Source: Ochromonas danica | Taxonomy: Eukaryota > Sar > Chrysophyceae > Chromulinales > Chromulinaceae | Direction: 5' to 3' | Assembly: GCA_015146655.1 (NCBI GenBank) | Contig: VKHL01000089.1 | Coordinates: forward strand, 54,833 to 118,832 | Length of the DNA: 64,000 bases | Shown here: positions 29,279 to 44,818 of the stretch, piece after piece | Layout: each line of letters starts with the position of its first letter | Numbering within the stretch: position 1 is the stretch's first letter | Made by a program: the position numbers and the translations under genes | Notes under the pieces: model-generated | Told to the model about the DNA's origin: nothing | The model's database searches: none | What the model saw: the letters and a program-made list of their open reading frames with translations, nothing else

Positions 29279-32107
29279 TTAATGCGATGCAACAACAGTG
29301 GCACCTGACACAGATGACCCAACTTCTTCATTAGGCTCCTCAATAGGTTGTACAACAACAAAGAAAAGTTGCGCAGCAAGAGCAACTGAGTGATTCTGAA
29401 GGCGATACATATTTCCGGGGGGAACATAAAAGCTGTCACCTGGTGATAAAAGAACACGTTGAGCTAATTGGTCGTCCCAGTCCTCTGTAGAAGGATCTGC
29501 CAAACCAAACTCTAATGCTTTTTCTTGGCCTGAAGAGACAAAGAAGATCTGCGCATATTTACCAACTAGTTCAGCATCTTTGACTCCTTGTGGAGGGAGA
29601 TCAAGATAACCTGCAATCCATCCTGAAATCTCTCGTTTGATTTCAGGAATAACAAAAGTATGTCCAGCTAAGCCAGATTTACTATCACCAGGAACAAGTG
29701 GACGTAGTGGAGGCATAGCAGACCGCAGATTGACAACTCGTTGCTCAGTGGGTTGCTCTTTGTAGATGTCCCATGTCTGCAAAACCTTTTCTTTGGTACC
29801 ATCGATATAGCGAACTTTTGCAGGTAACTTCACTGGAGGAAGACTTTTTGCCTTCTTATTATCTCCTTCCCATTCTGCGTCTTCATCATCTGATTCATAT
29901 AGCTTCTTCTCCACTTTAGTTGGACGAGCTCTTTTCTTGTTGGCTTTACTATTTGCCATTCTCCTAGGCTTCTTTGGAGTAGGCTCAGCCTCGTATAAAC
30001 CAACAAGAGTCCCATCCTCATATTTGGGTCGTTCATTCTTCCAGAAATTAAATCTACGTCCTTTGGTCGCTCTTTTGGATATTCTTGTTGCACCTTCTTC
30101 ATTTTCAGATTCATCTTCATCACTTTCCACAGAATCATCAAGAGCCATGGAATCTTGTAATAGTTGCTCCACTTCTCTATTTCGCTTTGACATCTTCTGT
30201 TTTTTTGTTAATGCTTTTGTCTGTTCTAGCAGTTTCTTACCAGCATATTTCTTGTTAGCACTACTAATAGTCTCGAGGTAAGACTCGTCAATGAATGACT
30301 TTGAAACTTCTCCCTCAGTTACTCCTTCTTCATCATCGTCATCCAACTGTTGCTTGGTTCCTTTTCCTTTACGACCTTTTGTTGGAGAGGGTGTAGACTC
30401 ATCAACATCCTCATCAGAAGGCTGCGCTGCTTCTGCTTCTTCTTCGCTGTCGAGATGGAAGGAAGCATCAGAAACTCGATGGCCGCGAATAAAGTCATTT
30501 GATCCAGGAGTAGGCAAAACTAAAGAAGCTCGCCTGCTTTGAGGAGTTCTAACAGCAGAGACTTCGGGTGTACGGCGAAGAGTACTATGTTTGGCACTAC
30601 TGACTGGGGTAGTGCCTGGAACAGTGCCAGGAGTTGTTCGCACAGAAGTTTCAGGAGTGGTGGCTGCAACTGTCGAAGCAGAGTTAATGGAAGAACGTCT
30701 GCTAGATTGCATGGATGATGGATCATGTACACTTGGAGAGAGATTCGATTCCTCATGCTCTTCCATTTCTTCCGCCAGTTCTGGCGACTGTTCATTACTA
30801 AAGACATCATCCATTCCAGGCGTCATTCCTGCACCTTGTTCTTCATCTTGACCATTCTCCTCTCCAACAATAGGTGAGAGATCCATACCAGCTCCAAAGC
30901 TCACTCTTCGACCTGACATAGTGGAGGGTCTGCCAGGTTTCTTGATACTGCTCAATAAGGGAGTCTCCAACTGTTTCATTGTAGCATCTGCTTCATCATC
31001 TTCTATTTGACCTCCTCCTTCCTCGCCCTCTTGTTGTTGCACCTCCACTACTTCTGTCTTGTGTTGGACAGTGAGCAGTGGACTCATTAAAGACGAGTTA
31101 TCAGTCAATCGACTAATCTCAAGACCAGGAGAATGCATATTCTTATCCTGCAAACTCTTTTGACTACTATCAGTTCCGGCTATAGTAGAGATCAAAGAGC
31201 TCTTTCGACCACGAATAGACGTCTTAGTCGCCTTGGAAGCAAATGACAAATCACCCAATCCAGAGGATGCAACAGAATTGATAAACACCCCCAGACTTTC
31301 ATCAGCATGAATAGAGGAAGGGGTGGGGATCTTGAGAGTGTCTTCCTCTACAGAGCTCTCTATTGAAGCAGGTGACAAAGGAATGGTAATCTCTGCTTGA
31401 GTGGGGGAGGCAGTGGAGTTTAGGATAGAAGGACGATTGTCTTCATTCTCAGGCTCAGTGGAGGCATCATCTTCACTGTCATCCAACTCACTCTCTTCTT
31501 CCACCTCTTCTTCAATCTCCACTATGTACACAGTGACACATACATACCCCAGAGTCAGTCCACACTATCAAATGACTAAACCATATGGCAAGGCAGAGTC
31601 TTACTCACCTGAGATGTCACTAGCAGTCTCAAAGTTGAACTCTCCCTCTGACTCCGAGTCTTCACCAGGTAAAGGAATCGCCTCTGACTGACTACTTGCT
31701 TTGATACTTCTGAAAATCTTGGAGATCAAGTACTCAGAGATCGGGAACTGTAACTTCTCTAGTAGATAACCAAGAACACCATTAGCACTGCATCATCAAC
31801 AATGAAAATACCAATAATATGGAGAGCATATAGAGATCAGTACAGATGAAAGTTGGATGTGGTTGGTATAGTATGATATATGATAATGTTGGTGATGATG
31901 ATATGGGGTATAGTCAGTTGATAGTAGGGGACAAGGGGAAGTTTGCAATAGGAGGCAGAGCGTAGAGAGTAGAGAGTAGAGAGTAGAGACAAGGTAGGGA
32001 AGCAGAGAAGACATTCACTCACCGGTAGTCTTCCAGAAGACATCCATGTCATCAAATCCTTCCTCATCCTTAGGAACTCCTGATAGAAGACTTTCTAATC
32101 GATCCAT
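29279..32107 (-). CDS. centromere protein C (CENP-C/Mif2) homologue
   Basis: Kinetochore protein that binds CENP-A nucleosomes and links them to the outer kinetochore. Three exons, 32107-32023, 31758-31609 and 31521-29279, splice to 825 residues. Near residue 565 it has the CENP-C motif: RISKRATKGRRFNFWKNER, with the Arg cluster that reads the histone acidic patch and the aromatic pair that contacts the CENP-A tail. The C-terminus (from about residue 700) is a cupin: GHTFVIPEIKR, then LLSPGDSFYVPPGNMYRLQNHS, the Mif2/CENP-C dimerisation fold. The N-terminal 500 residues are acidic and Ser/Thr-rich with many S/T-P sites, and a TTPETSVRTTPGTVPGTTP-like cluster. The acceptor of exon 2 was chosen by phase; an alternative strong-looking AG 41 bp upstream puts a stop in frame. 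Confidence 0.87.
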
Positions 32108-32881
32108 TTCGACTTCTAAACTTCTTTCTTATTTATTCTCTTGTTATAGGATAGTTAATAGGTTGAGAGAATCCCTAGTATAGGATAAGAGCAATTCAGT
32201 CAGATTGAAAGCAAACCAAACCAACTCCAACGACCAAACTAGCCTTTTAGCCTGGGAATCTAGCCTACAGTCATAACGGTGCGATCTCTTCTACTAGACT
32301 ACATACATTTAAATAAAGCAAAGAGACTAGAATAGGCATTACTTTAATTACTGTTTCTCTAAGGACTAATGAGAAATAAGAGCTTTCAAGTCATCATTCT
32401 TCATCAAGTAGTCTAATCTAATCTAGTAGCTAATGTGATTAATCCATGCCGTGGATTGAGATTCATATATCATGACATATGCACCTTTATGAATAATTTA
32501 TTGGCTATTGCAGATCATTTGTCGTCGTTCAAATCCAGAGCCAAGTGAATAAGAATCAAGACACATCTATTCTTCATAGATGATGGTCTTCTCGATTTCA
32601 TTGCTAAGTAGAGTACATCTTCTTCAAATCTTACGCTAGATTTCATCATTAATTCTATATACAAGAAGGTGTCAGCGGTTTAAAGATTATCATTTTGATA
32701 TTATATATATACTGTACAATAATGAACGCAGATGGTAGGGTTAAGTTCAATCGAAATTAGACACTAACAAGCAGTCATTGGACAATTAGTAGTGGAGACT
32801 TACCAGATGGGAATATACGAGAAGTCAACCATCACAACACTTTCTCTTAAATGACTATATCTTGATGTATATGTCTTGCGG
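32108..32881. other. 774-bp intergenic region
   Basis: AT-rich region between the CENP-C start and the 3' end of the glycosyltransferase gene, both on the minus strand. It must contain the CENP-C promoter. No gene, RNA or repeat is recognised. Confidence 0.5.
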
Positions 32882-34723
32882 CTATTTATTATTGCGACTC
32901 TGTCGATTCCTCCAGTCCAACCCAAATGGACAAATGCCGAAATAATTATAATGTCGTACACACATGGCTCTGATGAACAGCTCAGCTGACTCTGAACCAC
33001 CATGACCAATGAAACCTTCACATCGTTGAAGGATTCGTATAGTACTCATTAAATGGACTCCACCTGCAGTACCCAATTTACTGCGAAAATACTGATAGTC
33101 ATGACTATGTACCCGCATGGCTGCTTCTTTGGAAGGAGTGATAACCAATACTCGCCATCCATTGAGTTGCTGTTTGGTGAGAGAGAGGGTAGCATTTCGA
33201 ACATGTTCATGATCGTCCGTAGCAATTATAATTGTACGAATTGGTAGTGCAGATCCCACTAATCTCTGTGCTTTTGCCAAAACACCCTTCACTGTCATAT
33301 CAATAAAAGGCACACCCCCACAACCAAGATCATCTCCTTCATCACCTATCTTACTGCAATAGTCACTAATATTGGTCACATGGTCAGGAATTGCTCGGTC
33401 ACCTCTTCGCATATGTACAGCAATACATCGATCATGATTAAAATCAAACTTATTCTCCATAGCAAACAAGCGGATGGCTGCATCAATCCGAGCACGATAA
33501 AATACATTTGGACGAAGGAGGAATAGATGCATATATATACTTTTAGCAGTTTGTCCTAGACGATGTCTATCTTCATGATGGAAAAGCTTGTTAGGTTGTG
33601 ATCGAAAGATTTCCGGCAACTGCTTCACATCAGGATGATTATTATACCACACCTTTTGAAGCTCATTTCGTGGATTATTTACAATAGTATCCTTAATCTT
33701 TTTGACTCCAACCCCTGATGTGCTTGCTGATGTAAACCAATCAAAAGGAAACTCACGTACACAGTCATATTTACGGCATGAAGTGACTTCAGAAGGTGTA
33801 GAACAGTTTGTGAGAGGTAGAAAAGCACAAAGCCATCGATTAGCCAAAGTACAATCTTCTGCTGAGATGAACGGTAGATCGTCTAATGGATAAGGCCTAT
33901 TTGTTGTAGATATATAAGTAGAAAGAACAGCAAAAGGATGATTGTAATGAGCATCAAAATAAGTGGTAAGAACAGATCCATATCCAGGATGTTGGAAGTT
34001 ATATTTTCCTAAAAACATAGCTGACTGTTGACAGGTTGTTTCTAATAAAGGATATTGAACTAAAGCAACATAGGTTAAATAATCTTCATAGATGGAAGGT
34101 GTACGAAATAATGTCATGGATAGAAATTTCTCTTTTTTACTTGGTTGAGATTGTATTGTTGTTGTTGTTCTAGTACTAGTGGTAGTACTAGTAGTAGTAG
34201 TAGGAAAACCTTCTTCTACAATATACCACCATGGACGAGATGTCATCCAAAAATCCATAAAATGTCCTATCGTATAGGCTATCTGACTTGAATAGGTAAT
34301 AGTAATCTTGCGAATACTACGATGATGATCATGATGATCATCCACTAGACTTAGCTTAGACATCAGAGAGTCATCTGTAAAGTCTTCCTCATCTTCTACG
34401 ATCTCTAGAGATAATTGTTGACATTGTGAAGAAGAAGGAAGAGGAGCAGGAAAACAATTTATTATTTCATTCTCATAGTCGACACATGTTATATTGTTGG
34501 CGGTGTTGTTGGTGTCATGGTTAGTATGAGAAGATGATGAAATACCATTATTACTATTACAAAAATATTCATCTTGTATCTCTTCAATATGGTCATTAAT
34601 CGTTATCCCCATTACAGTCATAAGATAACTATTATGTGTGCTGAGAAGTAGTAGAAGTGTACCAAGTAGAAGGATGAGATTGTTCTTCCCAGCAGATAGT
34701 ATTGTTATTGTTGGAGATCTCAT
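32882..34723 (-). CDS. FUT8-like (GT23-type) fucosyltransferase family protein
   Basis: Probably a Golgi type II glycosyltransferase. A single exon encodes 613 residues: a short basic N-terminus, a hydrophobic anchor at about 12-37 (NNLILLLGTLLLLLSTHN), a long lumenal stem with several N-x-S/T sites, and a C-terminal domain. That domain contains CIAVHMRRGDRAIPDH near residue 435, equivalent to the VHVRRTDK nucleotide-sugar motif of alpha-1,6-fucosyltransferases. It continues with IIIATDDHEHVRNA and ILQRCEGFIGHGGSESAELFIRAM, matching the ATDDP and DIHFLSQADFLVCTFSS regions in position. GDP-fucose as donor is inferred from this pattern. No SH3-like domain of animal FUT8 is evident. The acceptor is unknown. 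The lumenal stem has Thr and Asp/His-rich runs. Confidence 0.65.
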   Translation of the reverse strand: MRSPTITILSAGKNNLILLLGTLLLLLSTHNSYLMTVMGITINDHIEEIQDEYFCNSNNGISSSSHTNHDTNNTANNITCVDYENEIINCFPAPLPSSSQCQQLSLEIVEDEEDFTDDSLMSKLSLVDDHHDHHRSIRKITITYSSQIAYTIGHFMDFWMTSRPWWYIVEEGFPTTTTSTTTSTRTTTTIQSQPSKKEKFLSMTLFRTPSIYEDYLTYVALVQYPLLETTCQQSAMFLGKYNFQHPGYGSVLTTYFDAHYNHPFAVLSTYISTTNRPYPLDDLPFISAEDCTLANRWLCAFLPLTNCSTPSEVTSCRKYDCVREFPFDWFTSASTSGVGVKKIKDTIVNNPRNELQKVWYNNHPDVKQLPEIFRSQPNKLFHHEDRHRLGQTAKSIYMHLFLLRPNVFYRARIDAAIRLFAMENKFDFNHDRCIAVHMRRGDRAIPDHVTNISDYCSKIGDEGDDLGCGGVPFIDMTVKGVLAKAQRLVGSALPIRTIIIATDDHEHVRNATLSLTKQQLNGWRVLVITPSKEAAMRVHSHDYQYFRSKLGTAGGVHLMSTIRILQRCEGFIGHGGSESAELFIRAMCVRHYNYFGICPFGLDWRNRQSRNNK

Positions 34724-34990
34724 TTTTTTTTCTTCTTTCTACTATCAGGAATATAATATATGAATAGAGGACTACTGTAGTGCCTAATAGTAATGGAAAC
34801 TTTCAACACCCTCCAAATTAACAGTTCAAGGACTAATTCCAATGAACGACTTGCGCTGTTTTATATTTAACGTGGTACTCGGAAACTTGCGCCGTGGAAA
34901 CTTGGGATTTTGGCCTCCCAAATGTGACCGTTTCCAGAAACTTGCGATTTTTTTTCGCAAACGCAAGTCACCGACTCCCATATAGCATAA

Positions 34991-36219
34991 GTGAAATATG
35001 TCCACACAGTCTTCTTCTCTAACTTCTTCTCTCCACCCGCCAACCCAAAGAGATGGTTGAGGGATCATATCACTAAATGCCGCGATAAACTTGAGGATGA
35101 TTACAAGTTGAAACAAGAACGGCAGTTGAAACTGGACTCCGATAAGGCGCTGAGGATGGCGAAGAAGAAAAATGAAGCACGAAGACTTCAAAGGAAAATA
35201 AAGAGAAACCAAGAACAATTAGAAGAAGCGGCTGGGGGATAATGTGCTACATTTTGACGATGAGGAAGAAGATAAAGTAAGAGGTGCTGGCGCTTCAAAG
35301 AAAACCTGGGTTCGTCGTCCTNNNNNNNNNNNNNNNNNNNNNNNNNNNNNNNNNNNNNNNNNNNNNNNNNNNNNNNNNNNNNNNNNNNNNNNNNNNNNNN
35401 NNNNNNNNNNNNNNNNNNNNNNNNNNNNNNNNNNNNNNNNNNNNNNNNNNNNNNNNNNNNNNNNNNNNNNNNNNNNNNNNNNNNNNNNNNNNNNNNNNNN
35501 NNNNNNNNNNNNNNNNNNNNNNNNNNNNNNNNNNNNNNNNNNNNNNNNNNNNNNNNNNNNNNNNNNNNNNNNNNNNNNNNNNNNNNNNNNNNNNNNNNNN
35601 NNNNNNNNNNNNNNNNNNNNNNNNNNNNNNNNNNNNNNNNNNNNNNNNNNNNNNNNNNNNNNNNNNNNNNNNNNNNNNNNNNNNNNNNNNNNNNNNNNNN
35701 NNNNNNNNNNNNNNNNNNNNNNNNNNNNNNNNNNNNNNNNNNNNNNNNNNNNNNNNNNNNNNNNNNNNNNNNNNNNNNNNNNNNNNNNNNNNNNNNNNNN
35801 NNNNNNNNNNNNNNNNNNNNNNNNNNNNNNNNNNNNNNNNNNNNNNNNNNNNNNNNNNNNNNNNNNNNNNNNNNNNNNNNNNNNNNNNNNNNNNNNNNNN
35901 NNNNNNNNNNNNNNNNNNNNNNNNNNNNNNNNNNNNNNNNNNNNNNNNNNNNNNNNNNNNNNNNNNNNNNNNNNNNNNNNNNNNNNNNNNNNNNNNNNNN
36001 NNNNNNNNNNNNNNNNNNNNNNNNNNNNNNNNNNNNNNNNNNNNNNNNNNNNNNNNNNNNNNNNNNNNNNNNNCTGATGCTCAAGTTATTCGCCGCGGTG
36101 GAGCATCCAAGAAGTGTTATTCTTGCGCCAAATTTACCCCGATCACTTTTATGTTCGAGGACAATAAGCGGAAAGTGTGGAAGTGCCGCGACTGCTGGTT
36201 CGATGAACCTGAACCATAA
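34991..36219 (+). CDS. unidentified gene interrupted by an assembly gap
   Basis: Not recognised. Before the gap a basic, helical segment (RWLRDHITKCRDKLEDDYKL ... RLQRKIKRNQEQLEEAAGG) runs to a stop at 35240. The next frame continues directly as DNVLHFDDEEEDKVRGAGASKK. A one-base deletion in the GGGGG run at 35233-35237 would explain the break, so a sequencing error next to the gap is likely. After the gap the frame gives DAQVIRRGGASKKCYSCAKF ... VWKCRDCWFDEPEP with two CxxC pairs about 23 residues apart, a probable zinc ribbon, ending at 36219. The GASKK string occurs on both sides of the gap. The start is uncertain and a 5' exon may be missing. Confidence 0.5.
35322..36073. other. assembly gap (752 N)
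   Basis: A run of 752 unresolved bases. It lies inside the preceding gene; reading frames drawn across it carry no information. Confidence 1.
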
Positions 36220-36437
36220 GTAGATATGTTTTAGGTTGTTAGTTTTTAATAGATTTAGTGTTGAACTTCGCAGGTCGGAGATGTAAACAAATATGAGGCA
36301 AATCTCTCTTGTCTTCGTTTCAAAAATTCAATATTCATTTCACACAATTGCAAAGCATTGGCTATATATTAAATAATACTAGATATGTTCATAACATATT
36401 ATTATCTTTCAATTAATATTGAAGTATTACAAAAATG

Positions 36438-36735
36438 TCTGTGTGGAGTGTGCAATTTACCGGTAAAATGGAGTAATTGGAACAACCTGAGTGTCAGATA
36501 CTTGGGTCACGAGTTCGATTCCTGCAATCTCTGCTTTCTGTGTGCTTTTCCCTTTGTGTACCTTTTTGCGCTTTATATTCAGTTACTTGGGACCAAAGGG
36601 TCAAATCCCAAGTATATGCTATCCCAAGTTTCCGAGTATTACGTTATAGGATATCGTATCGTATCGTTTCTTAACCGATACGATACCAATACTGGTCTCG
36701 ATCGGTAGTCTCAAAAACCGAGACGAGACTAAACG
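36438..36735 (+). repeat. hairpin-rich region with a tRNA-like (SINE-like) segment
   Basis: TGGAGTAATTGG at 36469-36480 resembles a tRNA A box, and GAGTTCGATTCC at 36511-36522 matches a B box. Their 42-nt spacing is that of a tRNA gene, but the acceptor and T stems do not pair, so this may be a degenerate tRNA or tRNA-derived SINE head. Downstream are several perfect inverted repeats: ACTTGGGA at 36585/36606, an 11-bp GTATCGTATCG stem at 36656-36686 with a 9-nt loop, and nested GTCTCG/AGTCTC stems at 36695-36730. No gene is seen. Confidence 0.4.
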
Positions 36736-36838
36736 CCACCTGTTTTAATAATGTAATTCCTTAAAAGTTGGCATGAAGTGGATATCCAGAAGATATCGGA
36801 TATCGCAACAAATAGACTACATACAACAAACAATAAGA

Positions 36839-38235
36839 ATGGAGTCAATTCTATCTGATGGTTATCTATGGGCTAAGACCATCCCATACACCAACCAACC
36901 CAAAGTTCATACTTTAGAACTTGATTATAATATTGACTCCATCTTCAACTATTCCGAATTCTATCATTCCTTATCCCCATCTGAACAAGAGCTTTACTTC
37001 CTTCCTGATGAATTTCAAACAGGTGATATAGTCACAGTCAATGGCTTTGTCCGTGGTGTGGGATCCTGCTATGTCGTCTGGTTACACAGTGGTCTCTTCA
37101 CTAATCCAGTTTTCACTCAAAAGCATCGCCGCCATCCACAAGAAGAATACACAGTAGGTGCTAAGAGGTCAACCACAGCAGAAGTTGACCTAGATCAATA
37201 TCCTCTGACAGATGAAGAATGGCTTAGATTGAGAGATCTGTTAGGGTCTGACCTGGCAGGAGATGATTATGACGCTTTCCTGCAAAAGTTAAGCGATCTC
37301 TTGCAAGAGAAATCTCCTGACTTGCTAGAAGCTATTAAAAATGATGGAGAGATGACATTTTTCTCGGCGATCACGTCTTTGCGATTCCCTGTAAGCATTG
37401 CTTTAGTCTACTACCATATAATAATGAATGCCATGACTTCATTCACTTGTTGTTGTTGTTATTGTTGTTGATAATGATGGTGGTGGTGGTGTTGGTATTG
37501 ATGTGCTTGTTGTTTTTCATACTTTAGGAGGATAGTCAGGCCAAGAAGAAGGAGAACGATGAAGAGGAGGATGCTGATGAAGAAGATGAGGAAGAGGAAG
37601 AGGAGCAGGAAGATGAGGAAGATGTAAAGCAAAGCTTTCTCCAGGAAAAGGCAACTAACAATGCTTCCTCATACTTCTTTAAGAATGCTCCATCCGCTAA
37701 ATGGCCACGATTGATTAAGCGTAAGAACCTGCAACCACTAGCAAAGGTGTCATTTATGCAGTGCTATCTATTCCGCCATCTTGATGAGTATGGTTATGCT
37801 GCACCTTCTGCTTTATCCATGGCTACCACGAGTTATATGAATGGTTTGGGGGGAGATGGAATTGCTCGTATAGTAGATCTTGCACTCTTACCTCCTCCTT
37901 TACGTCAAGAGACAGAGCTTGGTCAAGTACTAGATAAGATCTTGTCATATCTACCTAAAAAGCACCGTGGAAAAGATTACATTGTAGACATTAACACGGA
38001 AGGATCTAATCAGATGGTATGGTTTTCTGATGTGGAAGAGGCTGGGCAATACTATTCTGGTGATGCTCTTGTGACATTTGTAAAGACACGAGAAATGTTC
38101 CGTGAGCATGCTAGACTGATGAAAGAGGAGTTACAGACGTTCTTATCACAGCAATCTGATCGTGATCTGCAGAATCTTTCTATCGAGGAGGTGGACGATC
38201 TGCTTTCTCAATTGCTCCCAGTATTGACCAATTAA
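36839..38235 (+). CDS. unidentified protein with acidic central run
   Basis: Not recognised. Two exons, 36839-37390 and 37528-38235, join in phase 0 for 419 residues. The N-terminal half has DLDQYPLTDEEWLRLRDLLG and a helical DDYDAFLQKLSDLL segment. A Glu/Asp-rich run follows at the start of exon 2. The C-terminal half is globular (SSYFFKNAPSAKWPRLIKRKN, IARIVDLALLPPPLRQETELG) and ends in helices (LIKRK ... IEEVDDLLSQLLPVLTN). The ATG at 36839 is preferred to one at 36773 that would add a basic segment without obvious character. The last 77 codons and the 3' flank are duplicated at 40273-40725, indicating a rearrangement just downstream. Confidence 0.75.
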
Positions 38236-38403
38236 ATCTATCTATGAAAGTATGTTAGCATTAGTATAGGCCATGAGATTATTGACTCAGACTGGCAATC
38301 ATTGTTAGAAGGTTAGAAGCCATATCGATATTGCCAGCATTACAACAACAACTCTCGTAATGATAATTTACGCTTACTTGTTACACTTTAATCTATGGAT
38401 GAA
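38005..38403 (+). repeat. segmental duplication, copy 1 (gene 3' end and 3' flank)
   Basis: Nearly identical to 40273-40725, starting at TCTAATCAGATGG within the coding exon. Relative to copy 2 it carries three extra coding bases (GAT) and lacks about 60-80 bp of AT-rich 3' flank. Similarity stops exactly where the telomere-type repeats begin. Confidence 0.93.
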
Positions 38404-38420
38404 CCCTAACCCTAACCCTA
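38404..38420 (+). repeat. interstitial telomere-type repeat (CCCTAA)3
   Basis: Three perfect CCCTAA units directly abut the right end of duplication copy 1. Copy 2 lacks them and continues with a different sequence. This is the pattern expected if a break was healed by telomere-repeat addition or capture. Confidence 0.8.
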
Positions 38421-38616
38421 TGAATAGAACACCTAAAATCTTTAGAATGGCAGTCCAGAGGAATTTCCATGAAATGGATTTTTTTGTGCAGAGAAACTGC
38501 CATAAGTGAGAAATTCAGAGTTAAAAGTTGCAGTTTAGCATTAAAAATAACAACCATGGGTTGTGGTGCAAACCAAATTTCCCCTAAAACCATATTTTTC
38601 CGCCTCTCGATGCTCA

Positions 38617-40275
38617 ATGCTCAGTCAGGATCTCTTCGAGTGCGTTGCAGTGAAAATCGCCTTCCCCGAGGACGATGATGCTCCGGCTGTCGCTCATGTT
38701 GGGGTGGAGCCTGTGGTGATCGCTCCTGTGGTGGAGAAGGCTGCTACTCCAGCTCCTGCGCCAAAGGTGGTCGCTCTCGCCACCATCGCTGCGGACAACA
38801 AGCAGCCCTTCTCCGGTGTGTGGCAGCTGACTGCTCTGTACGAACCCAAGAACACTTTGGTTGAGCACAACCCCAACACTCTGTGGATTCAGGCCAAGAG
38901 CGGCGTGTACGTGGATCTGCGTGTTCCCTCTGTGGAGGTTGTGGAAAACGACAGTCTGTCCTCGGCCTCTGGCGACGAGCAGGGCAAGGAGACCTCCGCC
39001 CCTGCCACCACTCAGGTGGCACCTCATGACAAGAGACAGATCAAGTCCTTCGCGGGTCGCTCTGTGTACACGCGTGACAATGCCCATCTGGCTTGGACCC
39101 GCTCGGTGGACTTTCGCGGCATCCCCACGCAGGATGTGGGCGCCATGCAGCTGCTGGTCGGCGAGCAGACCGTTATCGAGGAGTCAGTCTTGCCCGGAGA
39201 CGATTTCAGAGAGGTCTGGACCAAAGTGGCGGCTCCAGTGGCTGTGGTGGAGGCCCCAGTCGTCGCACCAGTGGTTCCCGTCGTCCCAGCCAAGTCCTGG
39301 TCCAAGATTGTGGCCCCTGTTGTAGCTGAGGTCGAGAAGAAGGCCCCAGTCAAGGCGGCGGCCCCCAAGGAGGTCGAGGAGCCATACGATGAGCGGGCGG
39401 AGGTGTCTGCCGTTCTCACCCGCGCTGTTAAACAGGCTGTGGTGCCAGTTCCCAAGCCTGTGGTGAAGGTCACCGCTGGATCCAAGAAGGACATCAAGGT
39501 CGCTGTCCCTGCCCCCGTTATGGCTACCGCGCCCGTGTTCGAGGAGGTTGGCTTCTTCGTGTCTATGGATGGTTTCTTCGCTTTGACGCTGAACCTCCGA
39601 GGCAAGTCCCGTGCGGCGGTGCCATCTGTGGAAGAGTTGAGAAACTACTTTAATCCACCCGTGACGGCCCCTGTTGAGGTGAATCCTGAAGCTGCCCCCG
39701 CACCAGTGGAGAAGGAGAAAGAAGAGAAGGTCAAGACCGTCTTCTCGTACGCAAACATCGCTAAGAAGGTCGTGGACGCCCCTGTCGCACAGAGCAACGC
39801 CTCCAAGACCTCCAAGATCGCAGCCTCTACCCCCAAGCTGACCACTGCGGAGATCGAGACCTATCTGGCGCAGTACGTGACTGTGTTCGGCACTTCACAC
39901 AACTTCAAGGTGCTGCACGCCACGGACGCCACCTTTGTCGGCAAGGCGCTCTTCGACCTGCGTGTGCCTGTCTCCCACGGCGAGAACAAAGTGTCTGCTG
40001 TCAAGATCACCGATCTGCTGGTGGAATGCGTCTGGAAGGTGGAGAGCGGTCGCCTGCACAAGGACGTGCTCAAGGCGATCAAGAAGCCAGTCACCCCAGT
40101 GCAGAAACAGGGACACCATGGCCAGCAGAAGCAGCAGCACGCGAGTGGAGACTTCAAGACCCGTGGTGAGAGAGGCCACAACGACAACAGAAACCTCCAC
40201 AATAGCGGCGGTAACGGAAATGGTGACAACAGACCTCGCAGCGAGAATGCTGCAGGTCAACACACAAGCGTCTAA
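38617..40275 (+). CDS. G+C-rich Ala/Val/Pro-rich protein of unknown function
   Basis: Not recognised. About 552 residues in one exon. Codons end mostly in G or C, unlike both neighbouring genes, though beta-tubulin in this window shows a similar bias, so strong expression could also explain it. Order: a globular part at about 45-205 with FSGVWQLTALYEP, LWIQAKSGVYVDLRVP and LAWTRSVDFRG, resembling the W-x-Q-x-x-S-x-x-x-D-x-R pattern of calycin/lipocalin-like beta-barrel proteins; an APVV/KAAAP-rich linker; a second part with FVSMDGFFALTLNLRG; a third with AEIETYLAQYV ... FDLRVP; and a Gln/Gly/Asn/Arg-rich tail (GQQKQQHASGDFKTRGERG). Such a tail suggests RNA binding. The start could lie at an upstream in-frame ATG (38563). 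The stop codon TAA is supplied by duplication copy 2, so the original C-terminus may be lost. Confidence 0.65.
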   Translation: MLSQDLFECVAVKIAFPEDDDAPAVAHVGVEPVVIAPVVEKAATPAPAPKVVALATIAADNKQPFSGVWQLTALYEPKNTLVEHNPNTLWIQAKSGVYVDLRVPSVEVVENDSLSSASGDEQGKETSAPATTQVAPHDKRQIKSFAGRSVYTRDNAHLAWTRSVDFRGIPTQDVGAMQLLVGEQTVIEESVLPGDDFREVWTKVAAPVAVVEAPVVAPVVPVVPAKSWSKIVAPVVAEVEKKAPVKAAAPKEVEEPYDERAEVSAVLTRAVKQAVVPVPKPVVKVTAGSKKDIKVAVPAPVMATAPVFEEVGFFVSMDGFFALTLNLRGKSRAAVPSVEELRNYFNPPVTAPVEVNPEAAPAPVEKEKEEKVKTVFSYANIAKKVVDAPVAQSNASKTSKIAASTPKLTTAEIETYLAQYVTVFGTSHNFKVLHATDATFVGKALFDLRVPVSHGENKVSAVKITDLLVECVWKVESGRLHKDVLKAIKKPVTPVQKQGHHGQQKQQHASGDFKTRGERGHNDNRNLHNSGGNGNGDNRPRSENAAGQHTSV

Positions 40276-40498
40276 TCAGATGGTATGGCTTTCTGTGGAA
40301 GAGGCTGGGCAATACTATTCTGGTGATGCTCTTGTGACATTTGTAAAGATACGAGAAATGTTCCGTGAGCATGCTAGACTGATGAAAGAGGAGTTACAGA
40401 CGTTCTTATCACAGCAATCTGATCGTGATCTGCAGAATCTTTCTATCGAGGAGGTGGACGATCTGCTTTCTCAATTGCTCCCAGTATTGACCAATTAA
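40273..40498 (+). pseudogene. duplicated 3' fragment of the 36839-38235 gene
   Basis: Encodes the last 75 codons of the upstream gene with one substituted codon and a three-base deletion, ending at the same stop. It has no start or promoter of its own. It overlaps the end of the G+C-rich gene in another frame, where the fragment's TAA bases close that gene. Confidence 0.8.
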
Positions 40499-40725
40499 AT
40501 CTATCTATTATCATATTATACATATAATATGACGAGATATGAAAGTATATTAGCACTAGGTCTATAAATAGATAAAATTGCACTAGTATAGGCCATGAGA
40601 TTATTGACTCAGACTGGCAATTATTGTTAGAAGGTTAGAAGCCATATCGATTTAGCCAGCATTACAACAACAACTCTCGTAATCATAATTTACGCTTGCT
40701 TGTTACACTTTAGTCTATGGATGAA
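40273..40725 (+). repeat. segmental duplication, copy 2
   Basis: Matches 38005-38403 across coding end and 3' flank, with an extra AT-rich stretch (about 40514-40590) in the flank. Similarity ends at ATGGATGAA (40717-40725). Confidence 0.92.
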
Positions 40726-40774
40726 TATACTAATAAAGAGTGAGAGAACGATGTAGTACAAGATCCTCAGTGAA

Positions 40775-42063
40775 TTACACGGAAGTGAGAGAGCTGCTGT
40801 CTCGAAAGTGAACAATCTCTTGCTCTGTCTGGTAGTTCTTTTGAATCGTATCATGTGCTGGCGTTCTAGCATCTTCATCTTCTCTATCAGATAATGGCAT
40901 AAATAAAGGTTCTCCCCTTCTTTCCTTGACAATCATGTAGATGATGAAGCAAACAAAGACTATCAATGCCACCGCACCAATGGCAATGCCAGCATAAGCT
41001 CCATCACTGAGGACAGGTCCTGAAGAACCACCACTTCTCTTGGTATAAAATGTCGACCCGGAAGCTAATGCAAAACAAGAGAAAACGAATGCTTGACTAC
41101 GACCTTGACCTTGGTAAGATGCGTCAACAACAAAGTAGGGTTCACTTCCTTCCGTGTTGCCGCTAATAACCGAGCCAAGGACACCATCACTACTCGCATA
41201 ATAAGTCCTAGTAAATCCATTGAATGGAGTCGTGCTAGAATTATAAGCCTTCACAAGCTGTGCAGAGATTGCCTCTATTTTGATTTGTAGGTTAGAGTTA
41301 GCAACTGTCGAACAGGTCAATAGATTCTCTCACCATAGTACTCTGGCCAGAAACCAGTAGGTGGATCCACTTGGTAGTTACCCGTATTATCCCAGTTCAC
41401 ATTACCCAAAGAAGCGATGCGAATGGTCCCTCTCACAAACCATTCCTCCGTCGCAACCTCAGTCAGAGAAGGGAATGGGTAGTAGTCTGCCTCAGCCATA
41501 CAACTGTTAGCCTCAGTCACTACCATAGGTGCATTATCGCGAGCAAATTGGAAAGGTCCACCACTCTCCAAGACTCTCACGATAGCAGCATCTGAAGAGG
41601 TAACAACAAACACACACATACACATGCATGCATGCATACAAATGTATCAGAAGAATGAACTGATCACTGACTGGAGCAAACGATGGTTACCTAAGGCTTT
41701 ACGTAGTAAACTAGATGAATTAGGTGCAAGGAGGATCGCTTGTGGAGAGAGGATGCCTGATGAGAACTGATTGAATCCACTAGGTGGAATCTGTGTGAGC
41801 AAACCAGCCAACAGAGTGCCATTGGAGATCATGTGACTCAACTGATCCACAGTAGAGACAACCACAGGCTCCACAGTCGATGGCAAAGTATTCTTAACCA
41901 CGATATAGTTACCCATTGAGAGGAAGCCCACTTTACGATTGGGTCCTTCTTCAATGGCATCATAAAGTTCCGAGAGATTCTCAATCTCTGCATGAACTAG
42001 ATGTTGACCAATAACAACAAGGAAGAGGAAGCACAGAAGAAGAAGCTGGTGATAATAGGTCAT
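40775..42063 (-). CDS. single-pass membrane protein with solute-binding-protein-like ectodomain
   Basis: Function unknown; the layout suggests a receptor or sensor. Three exons, 42063-41691, 41591-41334 and 41274-40775, splice to 376 residues. It starts with a signal peptide (MTYYHQLLLLCFLFLVVIGQHLVHA), followed by an ectodomain of about 270 residues. Patterns such as LLAGLLTQIPPSG, SPQAILLAPNSSSLLRKALDAAIVRVLESGG and WFVRGTIR suggest a periplasmic-binding (SBP family 3-like) fold. A single transmembrane helix (AYAGIAIGAVALIVFVCFIIYMIV) is followed by a 45-residue cytosolic tail with acidic and Ser-rich segments. The family call rests on general pattern, not on a diagnostic motif. Confidence 0.55.
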
Positions 42064-42609
42064 AGTACAGTCAGTAGACAGCAGTCCTTTCTATGCTTAA
42101 CTCTGCTTTGTTGTGGTTGTTCTTGCAATCGTCCATTTCCATTCCGAAGCACTACGAGGTTGAATGAGTGGAGACCTCGTCACCCAGGAGGGGGTTGTAG
42201 GTCAGAAAAGAAGAGTTTCGAATGCGGAGATGACGACCTTTTCCAAAATCAGTGGTGGAATAGTAGTGGAATGGTGGTGGAATGGTGGAGTGGGGGATTG
42301 GATTCCATCATTTCATATCATGCAAAGTTATGAAGAAGAAGTTATGCTTGATGGGTTTTCTGAAGTCTTGTTTCATTCAATAAACCTTAACACAGGAAAA
42401 AACACAACAAAGGAAATTATTCGAGCTCACTGCAAGAGAGTTGCTTCGATCTATTCGAAGCATCGGTTCCTCTAAACCTCAATACATAAACCAACCGTAG
42501 TCTGGTTGCTGATCATACATAATAGATAGGATATTAATAACAGATGTGCACAAACCATAAACAAGATTCTCAAATGAAGACGAAGAAGCAGATAATTTGA
42601 ACTCAACCA
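42064..42609. other. 546-bp intergenic region
   Basis: Upstream of the receptor-like gene and downstream of the permease, both minus strand. A GGTGGAATGG-type imperfect repeat lies near 42251-42305. An open frame of 103 codons (42164-42475, plus) lacks domain or codon support and is not called. Confidence 0.45.
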
Positions 42610-44818
42610 TCAATCCACGACGTCTAACACATCCTGCCAAGGCAAAGTACAAACATGCTCTACCATCGCGTTATCTGGAGCTATTTGATAGCATGGCAAG
42701 CCCCGCTGATGACGCTTGCTTTGATAGTCAAGCGTCGGATGATTCCTAACTTGACTATCAATCAATTCAGACGATATGCTGAACAGAGAATCTTTGTCAT
42801 AGGTAGCATGGACAGCAGTAGTTGCATTTTGCTCTCCTTCAGGCTGTCGCGCATGTCGCTCTGACTTCGCGTTATCCTCTGGCGTGTAGCCTCGATAGCT
42901 ATTATCATCCCTTTTCTGCTCCCTTTTCTTTACTATTGCTGTACCAGTTGGTAGATTGGCAGTAAATGTCACATTCGAACGGATTCGGAACATTCGAGAA
43001 ACATATGCCGCCGCACCACTTAACCTATCCAAATATCCATGCTGGGCATGATTTGCCCTTAGAAGTACAGATGGGATTCGCGTGTTCGATGAAGTGGGTG
43101 TAGGTAGCGCTTGTCGTTTGCGCCGCCGACGGGTGGCATTGGCTAATGTCGCAAAGACAGACACACAACACACAAATAAGCTACGAACAACAACAAAGTG
43201 GATCAAGTAATAGCGGGAAAATCCTCCTACCATTGATAACATAGGCTTGGAACATGACCTTCTGCTCCAGCAAGGAGAATACTTGCTTTGAGTTTACTTG
43301 CCAGAAATACCAAATGGTCAGAAAGATCAGATATATCGCGAAAAGCACATACATCATAATCAACCGGGGATAGAAGTTCAACATACAGCATACATAAGCG
43401 AGGAACATTGCTAAGCTGTAATATGCCAAAATAGGCCCCACAGGCTGAGTAAACATGCGTGGTAATGAAGAAAGATGCTTACGAAACCTCAAAAACGAAA
43501 CCAAAATAATCATCTCAATAAATAGGCCAGCGGTGTGGCCAAGACCAGAGAGCGCCCATAGCACCTTCTCATCGACAACGAAGTGGCATATACAGAGAAA
43601 GCCAAACGTCAACCCTGCTCCCACTAGCAAAGCCATGTAGGGGATCTGATCAGGACCATGTGAATAGCGAAGCACGCTAAGAGAGAGACCACTCTCAGCC
43701 ATTGATCGCATTTGGATGCTGTAGACATATGTTACGGCCGATGTGGTTGCAATGGAAGCTGGAATGCCTAGCAGTCTGGCCGCTCTCCGAGTAATATGCA
43801 GCCCCTTGGCATAGCCGTAAGAAAAGGCATTTACCTCAGGAAGAGCGAAGTAGGAAACCCCAGGAGCATTACAACCTACGATGATCGTCAATAGCAGCGC
43901 ATTGGCTGCCACAATCCCAAAGGACCAAAGAAAGGAACGTGGAATAGTCTTTCTGGGCTGTTGTAGTGAGAAATGCACGGGTTTATATGTGGTTAGCAAA
44001 AGATACTGTTAGAGAGATAACAAGAATCCCCTCACCTCGGAGGCATCACCGCAAGCCATCGGCAACAATGGTAACATGTCGAACATGATAACTGGATAGC
44101 CAAAGTACTTAAAATATCGGCGAGCATTGAGATCACCATCTAGCATCCCTCCACCATATCGTTCACAGTCCACACAAGGGATAGTAACTGCATAGTAAAT
44201 ACAGAACAAGGCTATTACAATGACCATCGTGATGACATTGCTTCTCCAGAAGTGTTTGACTTCGAAGATGTTTACCATCAAGGTCCACATCAACAATAAT
44301 ATCCAAAAGAGCAGAGCATAATGACGTGATATGCCCAGCCATGCTATGATATCTTGACCTGCAAATAATAAAAAGAAGGCTGCATAGGTGATGCTGAGCA
44401 TCATCTCACAACATGCCACTAGGTAGCCGAAGTACGGACCCATCGTCACCCGCACGATACCATAGAGACCACCACCAAAGGGAAGAGCAGACGTCATCTC
44501 TGCAATACAGAGGATGTTGGAGAGGTATACCGAGCCACACACGAAGACAGCCAGCAGATATTCTATCGTTCCTGCTGATAACCCATTATTCCAACCATAG
44601 AACTGACTCCCCGACACCAGGGCCAACCCTAAGTCAAAGAAGAGGAGACAACACAGTCAGCATGTCATAGGCGAAGGCCAGGAAGAGAGAGATGGACGGC
44701 TTACCTAGTAGAGTGACTTCCCACGTAGGGTGCCCACTCTTCTCTCACACATCTTGTCATTCAAAGAATCATTACCTTCTTCCTCTACCATCACTCACCT
44801 AAAGTATGTGCAATTCAT
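42610..44818 (-). CDS. amino acid permease, APC superfamily
   Basis: Membrane transporter for amino acids or amines. Five exons, 44818-44799, 44736-44705, 44628-44036, 43957-43231 and 43142-42610, splice to 634 residues. The first conserved helix reads TWEVTLLGLALVSGSQFYGWNNGLSAG, like the SGxxFGWN motif of ethanolamine/yeast-type APC members. The next, AEMTSALPFGGGLYGIVRVTMGP, matches the APC consensus AELA-xxxPxxGG-Y-x-x-x-x-x-x-GP. About twelve hydrophobic segments follow, ending near residue 455, then a long basic cytosolic tail (RRRRKRQ). The two 5' micro-exons (20 and 32 nt) were placed by phase and are the least certain part; the core from 44628 is solid. Confidence 0.8.

Follow-up and report, generated by a model that had tools for sequence, protein, structure and literature searches.

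The window analyzed here, a stretch of 64,000 nucleotides from Ochromonas danica, lies on contig C89 of an assembly of 31.2 Mb in 337 contigs, and it contains a gene whose 3' end is present twice. Read along the forward strand, the locus consists of copy 1 of this gene end, a short telomere tract, a piece of a dispersed repeat, a G+C-rich open reading frame (ORF), copy 2 of the gene end, and, from 40732 on, a single-copy right flank (Table 1). The upstream gene is here called gene A, and a Pfam search with its last coding stretch gave no family with an E value of 1 or better; position 37711 is the beginning of the listed ORF only and should not be read as the start of gene A.

Table 1. Positions of the features of the locus within the window
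Feature	Position	Strand	Basis and remarks
Gene A (upstream gene), last coding stretch	37711..38235	+	ORF listing; frame open up to the stop codon
Copy 1, gene A last codons and 3' flank	38005..38403	+	Self-comparison, alignment
Interstitial telomeric tract, AACCCT x3.2, period 6, 19 bp	38402..38420	+	Repeat finding; ATGAA at both edges
ATGAATA right of the tract	38420..38426	+	Alignment; identical to 40721-40727, where copy 2 runs on
Truncated dispersed-repeat piece	38438..38569	+	Own-genome search; 14 other matches in the assembly
G+C-rich ORF, 552 codons counted from the in-frame ATG that first follows the repeat piece	38617..40275	+	ORF listing
Copy 2, gene A fragment without upstream coding sequence	40271..40725	+	Self-comparison, alignment

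As the original prediction had it, the gene's 3' end, a segment of about 400 bp, recurs about 2.3 kb away. Copy 2 exceeds copy 1 by 56 bp, due to gaps in the non-coding part. A block of 215 nt (38031-38245 against 40294-40508, spacing 2263) is 100% identical by rounding, with one mismatch in the alignment, and a further block (38258-38403 against 40580-40725, spacing 2322) is 95% identical; the longest stretch identical in both copies is 158 bp. Over an alignment of 38003-38403, the coding part of the copies has 226 matches, 4 mismatches, and 3 gap columns, against 160, 8, and 59, respectively, in the non-coding part. Two of the four coding mismatches are the two bases to the left of a shared TCTAATC. 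The assembly contains no match to the duplicated segment beyond these two places. Within 40509-40579, the non-coding part of copy 2 has two stretches that are missing from copy 1, one of them with the 7-bp direct repeat GCACTAG at its two ends, an arrangement that would fit a slippage deletion in copy 1.

The telomere tract and the two joints

The tract that meets the end of copy 1 (38402-38420 against 38403) is internal and is built of the genome's own telomere repeat. Arrays of CCCTAA/TTAGGG, the terminal repeat of this genome, stand at contig ends, as telomeres would be expected to. Eleven of the 12 contig ends tested carry 76-78 bp of it, with the sequence at L077 going on after a variant base, and the remaining end, L066, was not amenable to this test but shows 77 bp in its sequence. 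A 17-base pattern of three telomere repeats gives 279 matches on one strand of the assembly and 227 on the other, these being overlapping matches that count each array many times, and the same pattern read backwards gives 0 and 1. The window holds one CCCTAACCCTAA, and none of 100 shuffles gave any.

At least 11 further isolated internal tracts of telomere repeat are present in the genome, and because such tracts recur, the tract in the window is one of a class. The 12 isolated arrays that we compared were picked by eye and include the one in the window (L059), with clustered, long, and near-terminal arrays excluded. A 5-bp direct repeat lies at the edges of two of them, ATGAA in the window and TAGGC at L009, and the remaining 10 have no flanking direct repeat of at least 4 bp. 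Among mismatched pairs of flanks, 5 of 132 reach 5 bp, and at 4 bp or more the count is 9 of 132 against 2 of the 12 tracts. The comparison of 2/12 with 5/132 for 5-bp repeats, with the window tract among the two, is suggestive at most. No direct duplication of 20 bp or more spans any of the 12 tracts within flanks of up to 1.5 kb, a reach that misses the duplication in the window itself, copy 2 lying further off, and that gives no frequency for this arrangement; the flanks at L062 share an 18-bp match, and those at L022 have two inverted matches. Arrays of other kinds are also found. On contig C6, an internal telomere array (L010:1480-1565) starts with a short head-to-head piece (TTTAGGGTTAACCCTAG), as would be expected of a fusion or an inverted insertion, and on contig C256 (L064:1464-1765) there are long internal degenerate CCCTAA repeats with interspersed variants, unlike the short isolated tracts.

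The similarity of copy 1 was originally described as ending exactly at (CCCTAA)3 and that of copy 2 as beginning exactly inside the last codons of the G+C-rich ORF. The tract does stand at the edge of copy 1, and the stop codon of the ORF does lie inside the sequence common to both copies, but "exactly" is slightly too strong in each case. At the left joint, the ATGAATA that follows the tract is also the continuation of copy 2, a match as good as which is reached in 0.7% of 20000 placements made at random. At the right joint, 9 of the 14 bases to the left of the exact start of copy 2 agree, in addition to a shared TCTAA, and 0.3% of positions in 30000-44000 equal this agreement (1.7, 0.4, and 0.8% of positions for windows of 10, 20, and 30 bases). 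Each of these matches is modest, and together they would fit a formation of both joints at short homologies. Reading the joints by eye, we saw no poly(A) run at the right end of copy 2 and no target-site duplication around it, so that by eye copy 2 lacks the marks of a retroposed 3' end of gene A. A separate empty site was not found in the assembly.

The G+C-rich gene and the repeat at its side

A search of the genome with 38404-40272 returned the entire stretch once and 14 further matches, all of them within query positions 35-172 and at 75-89% identity. In seven repeat copies that were compared, the match ends at 38551-38557 in six and at 38569 in the seventh (L008). Because the truncated repeat has these 14 other matches, the left edge of the insert is native, and the insert is therefore at least partly native. 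Two longer copies, L004:1457-3007 and L005:1457-2901 (about 1.55 and 1.45 kb), have 42-bp inverted ends that look hairpin-like by eye. We take the dispersed repeat to be a putative non-autonomous DNA transposon, ORFs having been listed for three of its copies (L005, L007, and L008). The repeat piece and the gene as one whole transposon is not supported, since the piece in the window is without the inverted ends of L004 and L005. The ORF protein occurs once in the genome, and therefore no other repeat copy carries the ORF.

The listed open frame of the G+C-rich ORF is 38563-40275. Its composition departs from its surroundings as had been predicted: counted from the ATG at 38617, GC is 0.59 and GC3 is 0.71, against GC3 of 0.26 and 0.37 in two window neighbours that we chose for contrast, with values up to 0.58-0.61 in other open frames of the window (not checked as genes). 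Six nuclear-type housekeeping genes (EF-1A, three HSP70, actin, and tubulin) have GC3 of 0.50-0.65, all below the ORF. Tubulin was confirmed by Pfam, the others were picked by motif from family searches, and the set excludes the AT-rich HSP70 genes at L084-L086, the AT-rich EF-Tu at L048, and an elongation-factor-like gene at L051 (GC3 0.54). The AT-rich EF-Tu and DnaK-type genes (L048, L084, L085, and L086, on contigs C202, C311, and C319) have GC3 of 0.14-0.17 and look organellar or bacterial, so that sequence from outside the nuclear genome may be included in the assembly.

The closest approach to a known family is a match to HRI1 (E 0.0041) whose 17.3 bits fall below the family cut-off of 27. 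The HRI1 search found no match in the organism's own genome and none in 14 control genomes, and the ORF protein has no match among PDB sequences at E up to 1. A single-sequence fold had a mean pLDDT of 32.8 and was discarded. The original prediction had suggested a genome search for a second, complete copy of this gene; none was found in the assembly, the ORF being single-copy by DNA and by protein.

Proposed break repair and the alternatives to it

In our favoured reading, the simplest one overall and one to which we attach moderate confidence, the locus records an untidy repair of a double-strand break in which telomere repeats were captured, partly native DNA was joined in, and the end of gene A was left duplicated. 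The break would have fallen immediately downstream of gene A, and DNA with a transposon fragment and the G+C-rich gene would have been joined into it, with telomere repeats added at the left joint as part of the same event. If the right joint then fell back into the last codons of gene A, about 400 bp of its 3' end would have come to stand on both sides. Either microhomology end-joining or template switching would fit as the route of repair. Gene A retains an open frame in its last coding stretch and has its own 3' flank in copy 1, and the G+C-rich gene, which stops in copy 2, probably takes the non-coding tail of copy 2 as its 3' end. Break repair with telomere-repeat capture was among the original interpretations as well, and it fits the use of the genome's own terminal repeat, the recurrence of internal tracts, and the short homologies at both joints. 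The accompanying claim that the gene came from elsewhere has no more than half support: a native repeat fragment stands at the left edge of the insert, whereas searches for a donor of the ORF in the assembly came back empty. A simple copied patch would therefore need a donor that is lost, unassembled, or outside this genome, and the lack of one speaks against a patch of this plain kind.

Alternatively, the G+C-rich gene may have stood beside gene A all along, with copy 2 as the later arrival. If copy 2 was inserted later, downstream of an old neighbour, and the tract is a separate break-repair insertion, then the ATGAATA to the right of the tract would look like the resumption of an older sequence that the tract had interrupted, and the gene can be native since housekeeping genes lean the same way in composition. 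This would require, however, that the tract merely happened to land right on the boundary of the duplicated segment, and the right end of copy 2 is without the poly(A) run looked for by eye; we consider such a history unlikely. Derivation of the gene from another organism would account for a GC3 above that of all six housekeeping genes and for a codon choice that uniform usage (log-likelihood of −1.193 per codon) describes slightly better than the pooled housekeeping model does (−1.232). Composition does not show a foreign origin, though, because actin, tubulin, EF-1A, and HSP70 lean in the same direction, and a foreign origin proposed by composition alone is weakened accordingly. The gene also adjoins the native repeat piece, and scans whose reach is limited to close relatives confirmed none of 5 pattern matches in viral contigs and none of 71 in prokaryote contigs. 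A foreign source is in our estimation very improbable.

The assembler may have joined two alleles, collapsed a tandem array whose unit is about 2.27 kb, or threaded a small circle or array through the duplicate, a somewhat unlikely account that nevertheless has points in its favour. A graph assembler with a word length of 77 can be inferred because the telomeric contig ends are near-uniformly 76-78 bp long, and the 158 bp identical between the copies exceed this length. The copies also diverge more in their non-coding part (8/168, with 59 gap columns) than in their coding part (4/230, with 3), much as alleles could, but the difference in mismatches is not significant (Fisher p = 0.13). Against an assembly effect, the joints are free of N runs, searches of the assembly brought up no further allele of either the segment or the right flank, and sequence differences between the copies lie to either side of the 158 identical bp, so that paired reads could separate them. 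In the assembly graph the duplicate would form a loop, and the number of turns taken, or an alternative circle, would need read pairs or depth to discern. The remaining explanation is that a broken chromosome end, with telomere, repeat piece, and gene, was captured whole, or that two ends fused, with the tract as a remnant of the cap. CCCTAA on the + strand is the left-end orientation, as at four telomeric contig starts (L042-L045); the tract lies 196 bp from the ATG of the ORF, and the array at L045 has an ATG at a distance of 90 bp; and where contig C66 ends, its telomere array starts no more than 2 bases from the point at which a 111-bp match to another contig stops. That match (L047:2839-2949 against L042:2688-2796, 91% identity to an internal stretch of contig C27) is possibly a telomere addition at duplicated sequence. 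The tract in the window, however, is 19 bp long and resembles the other isolated internal tracts, a second end of gene A would need an extra step, and ATGAATA to the right of the tract would be chance. No match to the window of at least 40 bp (E up to 1e-6) was found in 13 telomere-end loci of 1.6-3 kb, which represent part of the genome's ends. We regard the capture of an end as quite improbable, and the fusion of chromosome ends raised in the original prediction is not favoured, since there is one short array in one orientation and neither strand of the window has a further CCCTAACCCTAA.

If break repair of the proposed kind did take place, it would hand a captured gene a ready-made 3' end and leave its neighbour unharmed, and a duplicated 3' end can in this way render an insertion beside a gene harmless. 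The locus would then be a readable scar, and telomere-repeat capture of the mammalian kind, together with duplication of gene ends, would also shape the compact genome of a microbial eukaryote. That telomerase often acts on internal breaks here, with repair able to move or duplicate gene ends and this locus as a gene-sized example, is a wider proposal that we regard as doubtful. The locus overturns no rule.

Comparison with known repair scars

Short interstitial telomeric sequences at double-strand breaks are known in mammals, and microhomology-mediated template switching gives both tandem duplication and templated insertion. The direct duplication around an insert and the short homology at the joints would liken this locus to the products of template switching. 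TTAGGG is listed among algal telomere repeats in the part of the survey drawn on here (PMC6410037), and among the listed titles of open-access papers on telomere tracts in protists and algae we found no such case.

For the horse, the sections of the study used here describe telomere repeats inserted at break sites that also underwent duplication, deletion, or complex rearrangement (PMC7215372), and of 66 tract insertions, 3 had a duplication alone and 19 had complex changes (PMC7215372, Table 5). As in the short interstitial telomeric sequences of horse and human treated in those sections, the window has a short exact tract of the genome's own repeat between otherwise unrelated sequences, what may be a short direct repeat at the edge, and a rearranged flank; unlike them, its tract is accompanied by some 1.85 kb of gene-bearing DNA and by a direct duplication of 400 bp (PMC7215372).

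In human cells, break repair with inserted patches that show microhomology is described in the relevant part of PMC5110952. The locus resembles the class 2 templated sequence insertions set out there in having a patch at a presumed break, possible microhomology at the joints, and no poly(A) seen by eye, and it differs from them in its long flanking duplication and in that a template was not found elsewhere in the assembly (PMC5110952). With respect to the template that defines class 2, the ORF is single-copy by DNA and protein, and only the repeat piece has other places in the genome. As far as the portions of these studies drawn on here extend, parts of the locus appear to be already known from mammalian break repair, and each part of it is an already known kind of repair scar.
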